Source of the DNA: Fibrobacter sp. UWR3
GTDB lineage: Bacteria > Fibrobacterota > Fibrobacteria > Fibrobacterales > Fibrobacteraceae
DNA: 64,000 nt
Assembly: GCF_900143055.1 (NCBI RefSeq)
Contig: NZ_FRCW01000002.1
Location: 186,001 to 250,000, forward strand
Reading direction: 5' to 3'
Below are positions 3,660 to 53,293 of the stretch, piece after piece. A model generated the notes under the pieces. That model was given only the letters and a program-made list of their open reading frames with translations, was not told where the DNA came from and did not search any database. The stretch's first letter is position 1. Every line of letters begins with the position of its first letter. The translations under genes and the position numbers were made by a program.

Positions 3660-4442
3660 ATGGAAGAAATCCTGAAAGTAGATCACCTGAAGGCAAGTTA
3701 CGGGCGCGAGTCCATTCTGAAGGACATTTCCTTCGGGGTGAAGCGCGGCGAAATCCGCATGGTGCTCGGGAGTTCGGGCTGCGGTAAATCGACGCTCCTG
3801 AACAACATCCTGAAGTTCATCAAGTCCGACGCAGGCACTATCACCTACTTCGGCAAGACCTTCGGTGCAAAGGAAGGCCTTGACAGCGAGACCCGCATGC
3901 GTACGGGCGTGCTCTTCCAGAGCGGGGCCCTCATCGCCGACCTGACCATCGCCGAGAATGCGATGTTGCCGCTCAAGCGCAGCATGCCCTACATGCCCAA
4001 GAGCCAGATGGAAGCCATCGTGGCCGACCGCCTGGAGAAGGTGCACCTGCTGCACGCCTTCCACAAGTACCCGGGCGAAATTTCGGGCGGTATGAAGAAG
4101 CGCGCAGCCCTCGCCCGCGCCATCGCGCTCAAGCCGGAACTGCTCTTTTGCGACGAACCTTCCACGGGCCTCGACCCGGTGACGGCCCGCTCCCTCGACG
4201 AACTTTTGCTCGAACTGCGCGACACGCTCAAGGTATCGATGGTCATCGTGAGCCACGAACTCGAGAGCATCAAGATTATCTGCGACAGATTTGTGTACCT
4301 CAAGGACGGCTACGTGCTCAAGGACGCCACGCTGCAAGAAGGCATGGAATCCGACGACCCCACGCTACGTCACTTTTTCAACCGGCAGTGCCCCAAGGAG
4401 GAATACTCCGAGGGACTCTACCACTTTAATTTTATAGATTGA
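3660..4442 (+). CDS. mlaF: MlaF-family ABC transporter ATP-binding protein
   Basis: A 260-residue ABC ATPase: Walker A GSSGCGKST (about residues 36-44), Q-loop in VLFQSGAL, signature ISGGMKKRAALARAI, Walker B LLFCDEPSTGLDP and switch histidine in VIVSHELES. The signature ISGGM and the sequence FQSGALI are typical of MlaF rather than of other ABC ATPases. It energises the MlaE permease encoded immediately upstream. The start follows the ribosome binding site agggagcagca, whose first bases overlap the end of the upstream gene. Confidence 0.94.
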   Translation: MEEILKVDHLKASYGRESILKDISFGVKRGEIRMVLGSSGCGKSTLLNNILKFIKSDAGTITYFGKTFGAKEGLDSETRMRTGVLFQSGALIADLTIAENAMLPLKRSMPYMPKSQMEAIVADRLEKVHLLHAFHKYPGEISGGMKKRAALARAIALKPELLFCDEPSTGLDPVTARSLDELLLELRDTLKVSMVIVSHELESIKIICDRFVYLKDGYVLKDATLQEGMESDDPTLRHFFNRQCPKEEYSEGLYHFNFID

Positions 4443-28403: not shown

Positions 28404-28620
28404 GCAAGTGTTACGAAAATCACAAGTAATTCTTTGAGTATCATCAAGTTACAATCACAAAAGACTGCTACGTACAAAAAAGGAGCAAATCGTCTGCAAC
28501 CCGCGTCGTTATTGGGCTCGCGTCATTTTACATACAAAGTAATTTTCATCCCTTATAAGACAACTTTTCCATCTTGTCAATATCTTTTTGAAAAAAAATG
28601 AAAAAAATTTTAAAAAGGTG

Positions 28621-28691: not shown

Positions 28692-28958
28692 ATGGCTACT
28701 ACAAAGAAAACTGTTGCTAAGAAGGCTCCTGCCAAGAAGGCTGCTCCGGCTAAGAAGGCTGTTGCCAAGAAGGCTCCGGCTAAGAAGGCTGCTGCTAAGA
28801 AGGCTCCGGCCAAGAAGGCTGCCCCGGCTAAGAAGGCTGTTGCCAAGAAGGCTCCGGCCAAGAAGGCTGCTCCGGCTAAGAAGGCTGTTGCCAAGAAGGC
28901 TCCGGCTAAGAAGGTCGCTGCCAAGAAGGCTCCGGCTAAGAAGGCCGCCAAGAAGTAA
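28692..28958 (+). CDS. Histone H1-like Lys/Ala/Pro repeat protein
   Basis: An 88-residue protein made almost only of Ala, Lys, Pro and Val in repeats AKKAPAKKA / AKKAVAKKA, like the C-terminal tail of eukaryotic histone H1 and bacterial H1-like proteins (AlgP, Hc-type, BpH1). Such proteins bind and condense DNA non-specifically; this is the expected role. The start has a good ribosome site (aaaaaaggaag), a clear promoter and a terminator, consistent with a strongly expressed single gene. The DNA is itself a repeat (gctaagaaggct), so copy number may vary between strains; the long reverse and shifted frames here are shadows. Confidence 0.88.
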
Positions 28959-36907: not shown

Positions 36908-39469
36908 ATGAAGATTAAAGACTCTATTCTGTTGACACTCAAGAACTTACTGCACCCTGCAGGCCTTATCGGCCTGGTTATCGCCATTATCATCCCGGCC
37001 ATCATCTGGTTTCTCGGTCGCCCCAGCGGAGGCCACAAGGAAATCATCCGCCAGCTCGACCTGAACCTCCCCCTCCCGCTGTTCCTGTTCCAAATGGCGG
37101 TCGCCATCATCCTGTTCGCGTTCTTGAACAAAGATTTCCGCGAATGGTTCAAGGGAATCCTCCCCCAAAAGCCGTTCAGCATCCTCGCCATAGCGGCGGC
37201 CATCGGCATCGCGGTATTCGCCGGCACCCAGATAGAGGCACGCCACCGCGTTCAGAGCGACGAGAGCGTGTTCATGTCGGTCGCCCAGAACATGTACCAC
37301 AACCACGAATCGGGCACGTGCAACCAGGGCATATTTGACGGCACGCACCTCAACTGCATCGCCAAGTCCAACAGTTTCAAGACGAAGGGTCTCGCCTTCC
37401 TCTACTTCCTCGGCATGCCCCTGTTCGGCACTGACCTGCACTGGATTTTCAACGCAGAACTCCTGATGCTCCCGCTCGCGTTCCTGCTAATGTTCCTCGC
37501 GATTGTCGCCTGGACCAAGCAGCCCCTGCTCGCCTTCCTCGCAGCACTCCTCATGGCACTGCAGCCCACCGTGCTCTTCCAGTTCCGCGCCATGTCGGTG
37601 GAACCGCTCTACATATTCCTCTCTGCGCTCTCGCTGTTCATATTCAAGTGGGCCTACGACCGCAACACCGTAATGCACTGGGCTCTCCTCGCCATCACGC
37701 TGGCATTCTTCGCGCAGACCCGCCAGGAAACCGCATTCTGCCTGCTTTCCTTCATATTCTTCGCCTTCCCGAAAATCCTCGACAAGAAGGATTTCAAGGC
37801 GCCCACGTTCTTCGTGACGCTCTCGCTGTTCTCGGTACCGGCGCTGCTCACCATCAGCTACTTCCAGGGATTCGGGTTCCAGGGCGGCGAGTTCGAAGCC
37901 CACGGCCACTTCCTCGAAGACCTGAAACGCAACTGGATCGAGATGACCCGCCCCCTCAAGGAAAACGGCGAGCTCGAGAACCCGTTCCTCACCTACTTCA
38001 ACTACCTGTTCGCCATCGGCGGAGTCTACCTGCTGTTCCGCGCCATCTACGACGCCACAAAGGGCTGCAGGTTCTACCTGTGGACGCTCGTGTTCCTTTT
38101 GCTCTACCACGTGCAGACCTACATGATTCTCGAGAACGTCTCGGGCGACTTCAGCATCCAGATTAACCAGCGCTACAGCCTGGTGATGCTGCCCAGCATG
38201 GCGTTTGTCGCAGCGCTCCCCATCGCGCACGCCATCGAGTACTTCGCAGCATCCGCAAGCAAGAAAGAGGCAAAGCCGCTCGCATTTGCGGGCATGGTCA
38301 TCGTCGCCATAATCCTCAGCGCATGGACGTTCCACTACAAGGAAGACTTCAACAAGAACATCATGTACAACCGCAACCACCTGACCACCGAGGAGCACGA
38401 AATTCTCGGCTGGCTCAAGGAACAGCCCGAAGCGGACCGCCTGTTTATCTACGGGAGGCCCTGGCACTTCGTGGGTTACGGAGTATCTTCCATCCACTAC
38501 GACAGGGCGCGCCAAATGAGCGATGCCGAACTGCAAAAGTACATTGACAAGTACAACGGCGAAGTCTACTACATCCGCGGGCTCGACTGCTGGGACAGCC
38601 AGACCTACCACAAAAAGGCGGTAGAACACCGCATCGCCACGACCTGCGACGTGTTTGAGCGCGAAATGGACCTCGTGGGCGTGAAAAACATCCTGATTAC
38701 CAACAACTACTGGGTGCAGATCGCGAAGTTCAACGGGCGCAAGCACTACAACCCCACGAACATTATCCAGGTTTCCGAACCCGCGAGGGAGAGCGCCGCG
38801 GAAAATTCGAGCGAAGCCCCGCTGCTCCTGAATTACAATCTCAAGGAAAAGCCAGAAGCGGCCCGGAACTGGACGCTCCGGATTTCGCTTAACAATCTTC
38901 TAGTGAAAGATACCGCCTACGCAGCCGGAGAATACAACGTCCTGGTGAGTTACGACAAACTGCAACCCGGTTACAACACCGTCCGCTATATCGTCACGAA
39001 CACGGAAAAGCATACTAAGCTCGCCGACATTTCCAAGTACTACTTCAACGCAGCCGGCGGGGCCTCCGCACTCGAACAGGGCTCAATAACCGAGCACCGC
39101 CAGGACTGGGGCAACCTCCGCTGGAACAAGAGCATAGAGAACCACGAGATGACGATAAACGGTACCAAGTTCGAAAACGGGTTCGGCACGCACGCCAACT
39201 CCGAAACGACAATCGGCCTCGAGGGCAAGTACCGCGCATTCCGCACGTCTTTCGGGCTCGACGACGAAAGCCTCTGCAGCGAGGGCGTCTCGGTGCAAAT
39301 CATCGGCGACGGGCAGGTGCTTGCCGCAAGCCCTGTATTCCAGAGCGGCGTGGTCCACACGCTTACCGCCAACACCGAAGGCGTGCAGAAACTGGTGCTC
39401 AAGACCACCGCGAAGGGCAGCATCGACTGCAGCCACGTCGACTTCGTACACCCCGTACTAATACCTTAA
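36908..39469 (+). CDS. GT39-like membrane glycosyltransferase with C-terminal NPCBM domain
   Basis: An 853-residue polytopic protein. About ten to twelve membrane helices cover residues 10-480; the first periplasmic loop has DESVFMSVAQNMYHN, with the acidic pair expected at the active site of GT-C (PMT/ArnT, family 39) enzymes, which use polyprenyl-phosphate sugars. After the membrane part comes a periplasmic region with an NPCBM-like carbohydrate-binding domain at about 740-853 (KFENGFGTHANSETTIGLEGKYRAFRTSFGLDD). The GtrB-like gene downstream probably makes the lipid-linked sugar donor. The acceptor (glycoprotein, glycan or lipid) is unknown. No clear ribosome site at the chosen ATG, which follows a tkt-divergent AT-rich gap. 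Confidence 0.85.
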   Translation: MKIKDSILLTLKNLLHPAGLIGLVIAIIIPAIIWFLGRPSGGHKEIIRQLDLNLPLPLFLFQMAVAIILFAFLNKDFREWFKGILPQKPFSILAIAAAIGIAVFAGTQIEARHRVQSDESVFMSVAQNMYHNHESGTCNQGIFDGTHLNCIAKSNSFKTKGLAFLYFLGMPLFGTDLHWIFNAELLMLPLAFLLMFLAIVAWTKQPLLAFLAALLMALQPTVLFQFRAMSVEPLYIFLSALSLFIFKWAYDRNTVMHWALLAITLAFFAQTRQETAFCLLSFIFFAFPKILDKKDFKAPTFFVTLSLFSVPALLTISYFQGFGFQGGEFEAHGHFLEDLKRNWIEMTRPLKENGELENPFLTYFNYLFAIGGVYLLFRAIYDATKGCRFYLWTLVFLLLYHVQTYMILENVSGDFSIQINQRYSLVMLPSMAFVAALPIAHAIEYFAASASKKEAKPLAFAGMVIVAIILSAWTFHYKEDFNKNIMYNRNHLTTEEHEILGWLKEQPEADRLFIYGRPWHFVGYGVSSIHYDRARQMSDAELQKYIDKYNGEVYYIRGLDCWDSQTYHKKAVEHRIATTCDVFEREMDLVGVKNILITNNYWVQIAKFNGRKHYNPTNIIQVSEPARESAAENSSEAPLLLNYNLKEKPEAARNWTLRISLNNLLVKDTAYAAGEYNVLVSYDKLQPGYNTVRYIVTNTEKHTKLADISKYYFNAAGGASALEQGSITEHRQDWGNLRWNKSIENHEMTINGTKFENGFGTHANSETTIGLEGKYRAFRTSFGLDDESLCSEGVSVQIIGDGQVLAASPVFQSGVVHTLTANTEGVQKLVLKTTAKGSIDCSHVDFVHPVLIP

Positions 39470-39543
39470 TGTGTAATGTGAAATGTGATATGAGTAATTA
39501 ATCATCACACATTACACACTTCACATTTCACACCTCACATTTT
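39467..39543 (+). repeat. Heptad array phased from the GT39 stop codon, forming a hairpin
   Basis: Eleven 7-base units in phase from TAA 39467: taatgtg, taatgtg, aaatgtg on the left and acattac, acacttc, acatttc, acacctc on the right, so the two halves are near reverse complements around aattaatcatc. Confidence 0.85.
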
Positions 39544-43640: not shown

Positions 43641-43702
43641 AGCCAGGATTCACGCGAGCGGGTTTCGATTTCGGTGGCGAAAAAAAGCATTTTTTTCATT
43701 TC

Positions 43703-43933
43703 TGGCGGTGAAATTAACAATTTTTTTCGCATTTCACCGCCACTTTGTTACGTTATCTGCAACATTTGAGTTTCAAAAGATACTTTTTCGTCATATTCGG
43801 CGGTGAAAACGACATTTTTTCTCTGATTTCACCGCCATCCCGCCACCCTATTCCGCAAACGGCCCTAATTTTTATACAGACAACATAATTTCTGGCGGTG
43901 AAAACGAGCATTTTCACCCTATTTTCACCGCCA
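43703..43933 (+). repeat. Locus of three inverted repeats with arm GGCGGTGAAA
   Basis: Three hairpin-like elements: tggcggtgaaat / atttcaccgcca (43703-43714, 43731-43742), ggcggtgaaa / tttcaccgcc (43799-43808, 43827-43836), tggcggtgaaaa / ttttcaccgcca (43893-43904, 43922-43933). Arms are perfect, spacers 16-18 bases and T-rich, start-to-start distance 96 and 94. Half-sites (cggtggcgaaa, atttcgccgcc) flank the set. The last lies 38 bases before gmk. Confidence 0.85.
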
Positions 43934-43971
43934 CTTTGGCAATTTCGCCGCCTTTTACTACATTTGGGCGC

Positions 43972-44535
43972 ATGAAAAACAAGCTCTTCGTGATGAGTGC
44001 CGCTAGCGGCGCAGGCAAGACCACCCTCAAGGACAAGGTCATCGGCGAATTTCCGGACATCGTGTATTCCATCTCGGCAACGACGCGCAAGCCCCGCGAG
44101 GGCGAAGTCGACGGCGTGCACTACTTCTTCAAGACGAAGGAAGAATTCGAGCAGATGATCAAGGACGACGCACTGGTGGAATACAACCTGGTGCACGGCA
44201 ACTACTACGGTACTCCCAAGTTCTTCGTGGAAGACATGCTCAGGCAGGGCAAACGAGTCCTGTTCGACATCGACGTGTTCGGCAAGGTGAACTTCGACAA
44301 GGTCTACCCCGAGGCAACGGGCATCCTCATCCTCCCCCCGAGCGAAGAAGAACTCGAACGCAGGCTCCGTGGCCGCGGCACCGACTCGGAAGAGGTCATC
44401 CAGACCCGCCTCCACAACGCGAAAAAGGAGATGGAATTCGCGAAAACGCAGGGAAAATACGAATATACCATCGTGAACGACGACCTCGAGAAGGCCGCAA
44501 ACGAGCTCCGAGCTATATTAAAAGGCGAGGCTTAA
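43972..44535 (+). CDS. gmk: Guanylate kinase
   Basis: A 187-residue guanylate kinase (GMP + ATP to GDP + ADP). P-loop SAASGAGKTTL (about 8-18), GMP-binding ISATTRKPREGEVDGVHYFF, and lid/adenine region RLRGRGTDSEEVIQTRLHNA. The start MKNKLFVMSA at 43972 matches the family; there is no clear ribosome site, the upstream sequence being the repeat locus. Probably transcribed alone. Confidence 0.95.
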   Translation: MKNKLFVMSAASGAGKTTLKDKVIGEFPDIVYSISATTRKPREGEVDGVHYFFKTKEEFEQMIKDDALVEYNLVHGNYYGTPKFFVEDMLRQGKRVLFDIDVFGKVNFDKVYPEATGILILPPSEEELERRLRGRGTDSEEVIQTRLHNAKKEMEFAKTQGKYEYTIVNDDLEKAANELRAILKGEA

Positions 44536-51535: not shown

Positions 51536-53025
51536 GCGCCGAAAATCCGGTATTTGCCGTACTGAGCCAGGGATGTGCCGCGAACTTCGGGGACGGGGAA
51601 AAGATTGCGCGGGCGCTTGCCGCACGCTACAACGCGCGGGTTGTATTCCGGCTGCCGGATGAGCAAGATGCTGCGGGAAGCGTTCGCAATTTACAGGATG
51701 CAGCGGGATGCGCGCCATCCGCACAAGATGTACTCGGGGCTCAAGATGCTGCGAGGAGCTTTTGCACATTACAAGATGTACTCGGGGCTCAAGGTATGCT
51801 CGGGACTCAAGATGCGCTGAGCCTCGGGTCGCAAAGTCCGCCCAGGACTCAAGATGCGCCTAGGGCACAAGATGCGCCGGACGCCATATACTTGAATGTC
51901 TGCACGGTGAAGGGGAACGCGGGTGCTTTGAAACTGCTCCGCACCGCAAGCGAAAGGTTCCCTGGCACACCGCTGTTCATTACGGGATGCGCCCCGAAGG
52001 ACTTCCGCGAAGAAGCGGTCAAGGTTACAGATAAAGTATCATTTACGAGTTTAGAGGAAATCGCCTCTCTAGAGCAAGGCGAAGCCACTGCGATAGAGTC
52101 CAACGTTCTACGCGGATCCCCGTTCGTGGGTATCGTAAACATCGAGGAAGGTTGCCTCGACGCCTGCGCGTTCTGCAGCACGCACCTCGTGAAGGGGCGG
52201 CTCAAAAGCTATGCCCCCGAGGGAATCGTCGAGCAGGTCAAGCGCCTTGTGGCCGACGGATGCACCGAAATCCAGCTGACCGGGCAGGACTGCGCCTGCT
52301 ACGGGTTCGATATCGGCACGAATCTCGCCACCCTCACGCAAAGCATCCTCGTGCATGTTCCCGGCAATTACAAGATACGCCTCGGCATGGGAAACCCGCG
52401 ACACGTATGCGGTTACGCAGGTGCCCTGCTCGAATGCTTCCAGGACAATCGCGTCTACAAGTTCATGCACGTTCCCGTACAAAGCGGGAGCGACAGAATC
52501 CTGAAGGCGATGAACCGGAGGCACACTGCAAGCGAGTTCCGGCGACTCACAAGCGAGTTCAATAAACGGTTCCCGCTCGCCACCCTCAGTACCGACCTGA
52601 TTGTAGGCTTTCCCGGCGAAACGGAAAGCGACTTTCGCGAAACATTGCGACTGCTCGAAGAAACTCGCCCGACGGTATGCAACATCACCCGCTTTGTCGC
52701 CCGGCCGGGTACGGCCGCCGCGCGAATGGAGGCAGATGCAGGCCTCCGCATTCCGGATAGCGTCAAGCACGAGCGTTCCGCCCGCCTGGCGGAAGCGTTC
52801 CAGAAAATCGCCCGCGAGAACAACGCCCTGTGGGTCGGCAAGACCTGCGACGTGGTGGTAGAGAAACCCGGGCACCGCGCAGGCACCTCCATCGCGCGGA
52901 ACGAGGCCTACCGCCCGGTAGCCCTCGCCGGCGACATTCCCGCCGGAACAAAACTGCAAGTGCGCATCACCGACGCAGAAGCATTTGCTCTTATAAGTTT
53001 AATTCGCCATTCCGCCCGAAAATAG
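51532..53025 (+). CDS. tRNA t6A methylthiotransferase, archaeal/CDKAL1-like type
   Basis: A 497-residue radical SAM methylthiotransferase that would convert t6A37 of tRNA to ms2t6A. N-terminal UPF0004 domain with three cluster Cys (LSQGCAANFGD, NVCTVKGNA, TGCAPKDF), radical SAM cluster EEGCLDACAFC, and TRAM domain at the end. The segments TGQDCACYGFDIGTNLATL, IRLGMGNPRHV, FMHVPVQSGSDRILKAMNRRHT and STDLIVGFPGETESDF, and EAYRPVAL in the C-terminal part, follow the archaeal/eukaryotic family rather than ordinary bacterial MtaB. Between the first and second Cys lies a repetitive insert (about residues 44-118). Starts at 51532, overlapping the SpoIID stop. Its TAG stop is part of an inverted repeat. 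Confidence 0.88.
   Translation: MSAENPVFAVLSQGCAANFGDGEKIARALAARYNARVVFRLPDEQDAAGSVRNLQDAAGCAPSAQDVLGAQDAARSFCTLQDVLGAQGMLGTQDALSLGSQSPPRTQDAPRAQDAPDAIYLNVCTVKGNAGALKLLRTASERFPGTPLFITGCAPKDFREEAVKVTDKVSFTSLEEIASLEQGEATAIESNVLRGSPFVGIVNIEEGCLDACAFCSTHLVKGRLKSYAPEGIVEQVKRLVADGCTEIQLTGQDCACYGFDIGTNLATLTQSILVHVPGNYKIRLGMGNPRHVCGYAGALLECFQDNRVYKFMHVPVQSGSDRILKAMNRRHTASEFRRLTSEFNKRFPLATLSTDLIVGFPGETESDFRETLRLLEETRPTVCNITRFVARPGTAAARMEADAGLRIPDSVKHERSARLAEAFQKIARENNALWVGKTCDVVVEKPGHRAGTSIARNEAYRPVALAGDIPAGTKLQVRITDAEAFALISLIRHSARK
51661..51890 (+). repeat. In-frame minisatellite inside the mtaB-like gene
   Basis: About a dozen imperfect copies of an 18-base unit with core caagatg and ctcggg (hexapeptides like QDVLGA), with spacings of 18, 30 and 42 bases, always multiples of three. 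Confidence 0.82.
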
Positions 53026-53293
53026 GACTAAACGCTATGTTTTTGTGCGTTTAGTCCTACGAAAAACAAGTGCATCAATCTGCGGATAGGACTAAATCGT
53101 GCATTTTTTCTATTTAGTCCTATCAAAGCCTCATTTTCTCTGTCGTTCATTTGTCCGAAACGCGCTTTTGTCCCTTTAACGCATTGCGAGATAGGACTAA
53201 AGCACCTTTTTACAACGAAATAGTCCTACATCAGCCATCAGAACCCCTCCCGAGATAGGACTAAAGCACCTGCATTCCACGATTTAGTCCTAT
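53023..53293 (+). repeat. Locus of four inverted repeats with arm TAGGACTAAA
   Basis: Part of the 466-base gap before the fibro-slime gene. Arms: 53023-53034 / 53048-53059 (12 bp, includes the mtaB stop TAG), 53085-53097 / 53112-53124 (13 bp), 53192-53199 / 53221-53228 (8 bp), 53255-53265 / 53283-53293 (11 bp). Spacers of 13-21 bases, T-rich (gcattttttc, ctatgtttttgt, gcacctttttac). Start distances 62, 107 and 63. From 53294 to 53440 I see nothing coding. Confidence 0.88.

Follow-up and report, generated by a model that had tools for sequence, protein, structure and literature searches.

What are the three matching palindromes in this stretch of Fibrobacter sp. UWR3, and why does a second locus nearby repeat the same design with unrelated arms? 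The window analysed here is a stretch of 64,000 nucleotides (RefSeq assembly GCF_900143055.1, contig NZ_FRCW01000002.1, positions 186,001 to 250,000). The initial annotation described three elements at 94-96 base spacing and proposed that such arms agree within a locus but not between loci, which would be unusual for REP-type repeats and might reflect concerted evolution within a locus or the copying of a local seed. In the present study, the observation itself was confirmed: three perfect inverted repeats (GGCGGTGAAA-N17/18-TTTCACCGCC) are present (Table 1), with the start-to-start spacing of the cores slightly tighter than described, at 95 and 95 bp. These elements are not due to chance, as GGCGGTGAAA-N10-30-TTTCACCGCC occurs 17 times in this genome and 0 times with the reversed control pattern, and pairs of like inverted repeats were found only in the real sequence and in none of three copies shuffled in three-base blocks. 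The second locus (53023-53293, arm TAGGACTAAA) is equally real, comprising four elements, with 28 exact elements of this arm genome-wide. An Rfam search of the whole window returned no match to a known structured RNA.

Table 1. Coordinates of the array features in the window
Position	Strand	Feature	Observation
43650-43985		Approximate extent of the phased A/T-tract unit	Includes ~50 bp outside the outer palindromes; best 210-bp window starts at 43775, power 30.4, the highest in the window (AA/TT periodicity scans)
43703-43742		Class A palindrome E1	TGGCGGTGAAAT-N16-ATTTCACCGCCA; perfect inverted repeat, arm 12, loop 16
43748-43759	+	Inner box next to E1	TTACGTTATCTG; consensus TTABTTTGTNYG; 5 bp after E1; same position beside the outer palindrome in classes A, C, D and one class B array
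43799-43836		Class A palindrome E2	Arm 10, loop 18; 95 bp (9 helical turns) from E1
43877-43888	-	Inner box next to E3	TTATGTTGTCTG on the minus strand, pointing toward the other box
43893-43933		Class A palindrome E3	Arm 12, loop 17; 95 bp from E2
53023-53059		Class B palindrome 1	TAGGACTAAA; overlaps the stop codon of a radical-SAM/TRAM protein gene
53087-53122		Class B palindrome 2	64 bp (6 turns) away
53192-53228		Class B palindrome 3	2 mismatches; 105 bp (10 turns) away
53256-53292		Class B palindrome 4	64 bp (6 turns) away

Are the arms locus-specific? The proposed interpretation was only partly supported. The architecture does persist while the arm changes, and this is not an ordinary REP family. 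However, the agreement of arms within but not between loci is true for these two loci only, and the arms are neither homogenised per locus nor copied from a local seed, because each arm recurs at several unlinked loci of the same genome. A degenerate pattern built from four arms gave 77 exact elements against 2 control hits, defining classes A (GGCGGTGAAA), B (TAGGACTAAA), C (GGGTACCAAA) and D (GCAGACYAAA). Anchoring on the shared inner box then revealed class E (GGGCRTATAAA), and a linked gene revealed class F (CATACYAAA). Class A is present at 8 loci of this genome, classes B and D at many loci, class C at a few, and classes E and F at one locus each seen so far; about 0.84 Mb of the 3.55 Mb genome was read directly, and the rest was searched by pattern. 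The result that had been set beforehand as a refutation, namely that only two arm sequences would exist in the genome, was not obtained, as at least six classes are present here and 25 arms were observed among 47 gene-linked loci in the genus. Class A occurs in 11 of 80 congeneric genomes, class B in 9 and class D in 5, and orthologous loci in other species usually keep the same class although their spacers diverge. What appears to set the arm is the class of a linked nuclease-like protein, not the locus.

What, then, do the arrays share? First, the palindromes are spaced by integral helical turns. Distances between palindrome centres cluster at 64, 74, 85, 95, 106, 116, 127, 137, 158, 169 and 179.5 bp, with a best period of 10.52 bp (R=0.946) for 55 distances in this genome, 10.52 bp (R=0.960) for 96 distances from other genomes, and 10.49 bp (R=0.938) for 70 distances from arm classes not used to find the effect. 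The 28 distinct distance values alone give R=0.842, whereas 5000 sets of random distances reached at most 0.58. At orthologous loci the spacing changes by whole turns, as upstream of gmk, where 95+95, 116+74 and 74+105 were observed in three species. Tandem duplication explains some class B repeats but not this pattern, since most spacers are unrelated. Upstream of gmk in two further loci (L076 in genome G003 and L079 in genome G019), a different palindrome (GTAAAGGACGGAAA...TTTCCGTTCTTTAC) is followed by a box-like ATACAAACTAAC and may represent a further arm class.

Second, AA/TT steps in spacers that are otherwise unconserved are locked to the same phase, peaking at about 21, 31.5, 42 and 53 bp from a palindrome centre and being scarce between. 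The effect continues about 50 bp outside the outer palindromes and fades beyond, so that each ~290-bp unit looks like curved or wrapped DNA. Rotating each spacer destroys the signal (z=11), and it was replicated in other genomes (z=13, with GC steps in antiphase) and in new classes (z=9). The shared T-rich loop (gcattttt) pointed out in the initial annotation is one of this series of A/T tracts. In a class-blind scan for this periodicity, 15 of 17 windows above 22 in the sampled DNA of this genome, a sample partly chosen around known hits, are these arrays, and a 400-kb sample of a relative with no gene match (G043) has none. Moderate AA/TT 10.5-bp power without a known arm was also observed in the 210-bp windows at 2435 (18.5) and 56274 (16.4). 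Just outside the window, at 257250-257459 of contig C2 of this genome (G000), strong 10.5-bp AA/TT periodicity accompanies GCACTTTTT...AAAAAGTGC palindromes upstream of a small gene that looks like an antitoxin, and this is not one of these arrays.

The surroundings were also examined. All 26 catalogued arrays are intergenic or overlap only gene ends, with 13 between convergent genes, 9 between tandem genes and 4 between divergent genes, against 25, 56 and 29 of 110 long intergenic regions, using gene calls from a simple home-made coding model. The neighbouring genes have no common function. Several Fib_succ_major (PF09603) lipoprotein genes adjoin class A arrays, but this family has 137 domain hits in the genome and was therefore treated as background; likewise, the 28 DUF4423 (PF14394) paralogs over cut-off showed no clear association as a candidate binder. 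The inner box lies about 5-6 bp inside the outer palindromes, and the boxes face each other in class A and point the same way in the others. The box is not a promoter on present evidence, as promoters of this genome carry TANNTTTG just upstream of genes and the box is not enriched there. A lone copy (TTACTTTGTATGTA) without palindromes or A/T phasing was observed at 28529-28542 (minus strand) of the window, about 150 bp upstream of a lysine/alanine-rich histone-H1-like protein gene starting near 28693, and similar lone boxes sit between stop codons and terminators at C2:449111 and C15:47613 of this genome.

Which protein might read these arms? The third shared feature of the arrays is that each class is linked to a ~270-310-aa protein with a PD-(D/E)XK-nuclease-like C-terminus. 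The gene beside a class B array at C4:114162-114983 of this genome encodes a protein of 274 aa (P0003). In all DNA examined at that stage, every tblastn hit of this protein lay beside an array, with one arm class per protein group (B with B, A with A and D with D). A family profile found matches in 49 of 80 genomes, with up to eight per genome. Of 50 gene loci inspected in Fibrobacter, in two sets, 48 (29/30 and 19/20) have a phased palindrome array within about half a kilobase, against 2 of 29 control loci with the same detector, although some loci are orthologous to each other and the 50 are thus not fully independent. One of the two exceptions (L223) has strong AA/TT periodicity and a weaker array. 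In several loci the gene lies between two arrays, and arrays are on the 5' side of the gene in 40 of 56 cases. Beside the linked gene, 25 distinct 7-bp arms were read, nearly all followed by AAA.

Arm similarity follows protein similarity. Among 36 proteins under 90% identical, arms differ by 4.8 of 7 positions at 35-45% protein identity and by 1.4 at 75-90%, and identical arms occur in none of 498 pairs below 45% identity and in 67% of pairs at 75-90%. The Mantel correlation is -0.24, with no permutation of 3000 as low, and the N-terminal half follows the arms slightly better (-0.26) than the C-terminal half (-0.18). The covariation is modest at low identity, one pair shares an arm at 48% identity, and a few arms were trimmed or anchored by hand. 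Moreover, shared ancestry of whole loci contributes to this correlation, which shows co-inheritance and is consistent with, but does not prove, recognition.

The linked proteins are ~270-310 aa in length, and no convincing match was obtained in Pfam or NCBIfam. However, all nine aligned members match the C-terminus of PADLOC PDC-S68 proteins (best E 1e-24), and three of the nine match HEAT_CxxC_PD-DEXK (2.6e-6). The motifs SKSE, PDF and WEH, corresponding to the conserved acidic E...D...E core, are kept in 47 of 47 proteins, although the third motif reads E-H-F rather than the classical E-x-K. We read this as a PD-(D/E)XK-like nuclease domain, with fold and catalytic activity inferred from sequence alone. 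The homologous ~80-110 C-terminal residues also end plasmid-encoded AAA/RecD/RecQ-type helicases and ATPases, whereas in the present family this domain is joined to a different N-terminal half in a protein linked to DNA arrays. No structure supports the protein: AlphaFold models from one or four sequences were poor (mean pLDDT 36 and 47), with only residues around 10-105 (predicted helix, strands, helix) reaching about 65-85, a PDB fold search was uninformative, and a PDB sequence search gave nothing significant. A full-length relative (29% identity over 92%) was found on a human faecal contig (MT839528.1, 4212 bp), where it is followed at 3830-4212 by repeated GTTGC/GCAAC palindromes; the automatic detector did not call an array there, and this is possibly the same system outside Fibrobacter.

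Herein, we propose, with moderate confidence, that the array is a gene-less member of a previously unnamed protein-plus-repeat system of Fibrobacter, a selfish or chromosome-organising system in which each class comprises a nuclease-like protein encoded beside one cognate array, plus dispersed arrays without the gene. The sequence data directly demonstrate the arrays of two to seven 36-39-bp dyads at integral helical turns, the A/T tracts phase-locked to the dyads through spacers and flanks, the near-universal linkage of gene and array, and the covariation of the 7-bp arm with the protein. In contrast, binding is inferred: the protein would recognise the arms, which sit about 1.5 turns on either side of a dyad centre and so on one face, about 3 turns apart, and oligomers would bridge or wrap the phased dyads into one nucleoprotein complex. 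This would explain the integral-turn spacing, the phased A/T tracts and the freedom of the sequence between them. Less surely inferred are cleavage and mobility, in that the nuclease domain probably acts at such complexes so that arrays spread or are maintained as selfish, non-autonomous elements, while the array beside the gene, usually on its 5' side, would also control it.

Are the arrays mobile? The patchy presence among species, the several classes per genome and the array-gene-array loci are mobile-like. In addition, the same intergenic spot, between a 157-aa protein gene and a beta-lactamase-family gene, holds a class D array in this genome (L130, C1:141014-141219) and class A arrays in three relatives (L056, L057 and L065); these sequences do not align convincingly and were treated as independent arrivals, not arm conversion. 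On the other hand, copies within a genome are old rather than recent duplicates, many are vertically inherited at the same place between species, and no target-site duplication or clean insertion was found. In the one close filled/empty pair (gmk, this genome versus the close relative G063), the empty allele keeps what looks like a remnant of the last arm, and the absence is therefore probably a loss. A phage origin was not supported, as viral contigs gave two stray class A and two stray class B singletons and no class D, and no viral relatives of the protein were found. The main weakness of the hypothesis is that this genome keeps arrays of classes A, C, D and E, but the only two genes found are beside class B and class F arrays; arrays thus persist without a detected cognate gene, including those of class A.

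Could another system account for these results? The alternative that survives best, although unlikely, is that each class is the operator set of a conventional regulator that loops or wraps DNA (Lrp/AsnC- or GalR/LacI-like) and controls neighbouring genes, with the linked protein as that regulator and its nuclease domain inactive or accessory. The helical phasing and multi-site geometry match such regulators: archaeal Lrp proteins bind aligned sites and wrap DNA (PMC2995911), Ss-LrpB binds three sites cooperatively at its own gene and many places far from promoters (PMC4046817), and the 5' position of arrays is expected for autoregulation. Lrp/AsnC-type regulators such as Ss-LrpB also use several palindromic sites on one DNA face, governed by helical periodicity, with DNA wrapping proposed. 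However, known Lrp sites are ~15 bp and 2-3 turns apart, whereas the dyads here are 36-39 bp and mostly 6-17 turns apart, and no HTH_AsnC or AsnC domain was matched in Pfam by any of nine linked proteins. LacI and GalR likewise use pairs or triples of operators at integral-turn spacing below 200 bp, but the present arrays lie mainly between convergent or tandem genes, their phased A/T tracts continue outside the outer sites, and the linked protein carries a nuclease-like domain. The scarcity of arrays between divergent genes, the lack of shared function among neighbours and the conservation of the nuclease motifs also argue against this reading.

A defence module, in which the nuclease is an anti-phage or anti-plasmid effector whose chromosomal arrays autoregulate it, titrate it or mark self DNA, is doubtful. 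The C-terminal domain resembles candidate defence proteins and occurs fused to plasmid-borne helicases/ATPases, but this is domain similarity only, no defence-island signal was seen among the neighbours examined, and dozens of dispersed arrays per genome, including for classes with no detected gene, are not typical of defence systems. Slightly less likely still are chromosome-topology sites for gyrase, HU or another nucleoid protein, placed between convergent genes to absorb supercoils, with the arms secondary. The phased A/T tracts over ~290 bp and the excess in convergent intergenic regions are consistent with this view, and BIME/REP gyrase sites are also extragenic, enriched between convergent genes and proposed to wrap DNA; however, general topology proteins do not explain 25 different arms, their covariation with a linked protein or the absence of arrays from the 400-kb sample of a congener, and no REP consensus was noticed. 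Finally, REP/REPIN-type repeats mobilised by a RAYT are very unlikely and are refuted on the protein side, as the Y1 transposase (PF01797) is absent from six array-bearing genomes tested (G000, G018, G069, G020, G010 and G064) and was found in two others in which classes A, B and D were not found.

The layout nevertheless resembles RAYT/REPIN (PMC3116915, PMC3686654), with one gene class linked to cognate extragenic palindromes, dispersed gene-less copies, several classes per genome and a patchy but long-lived distribution among relatives. The present system differs in its PD-(D/E)XK-like protein, in its 16-18-nt loops and in its phased dyads and A/T tracts; such long loops and helical phasing are not known as REP features, and no GTAG/CGTC tag was noticed beside the dyads on inspection by eye only. 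We know of no described equivalent among the open-access papers searched, although a description elsewhere cannot be excluded, and the F. succinogenes S85 genome paper (PMC3079729) contains none of the terms repeats, palindrom, intergenic, curved or nucleoid. In its boldest form, which we regard as somewhat less likely than not, the system would be a new type of selfish or chromosome-organising system, in which a nuclease recognises its own class-specific palindromes only when they are displayed in register on a curved, wrapped DNA superstructure, with protein and dispersed repeats evolving together into dozens of mutually distinct specificities within one genus; the human gut relative suggests that it is not confined to Fibrobacter. 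The findings link a phased DNA superstructure readable directly in sequence to a specific linked protein and to about 25 natural specificities, so that protein-DNA recognition, its co-evolution and DNA wrapping in bacteria could be tested with ready-made cognate and non-cognate pairs. They also suggest a second way, besides RAYT/REPIN, for bacteria to carry long-lived populations of non-coding repeats tied to one gene, built on a nuclease-like protein, and the geometry (palindromes plus 10.5-bp AA/TT phase-lock) gives a class-blind rule for finding such arrays elsewhere. Elsewhere in the window, at 39470-39532, overlapping inverted repeats TGTGTAATGTG/CACATTACACA and TGTGAAATGTGA/TCACATTTCACA were observed just after a long plus-strand ORF (stop at 39469).
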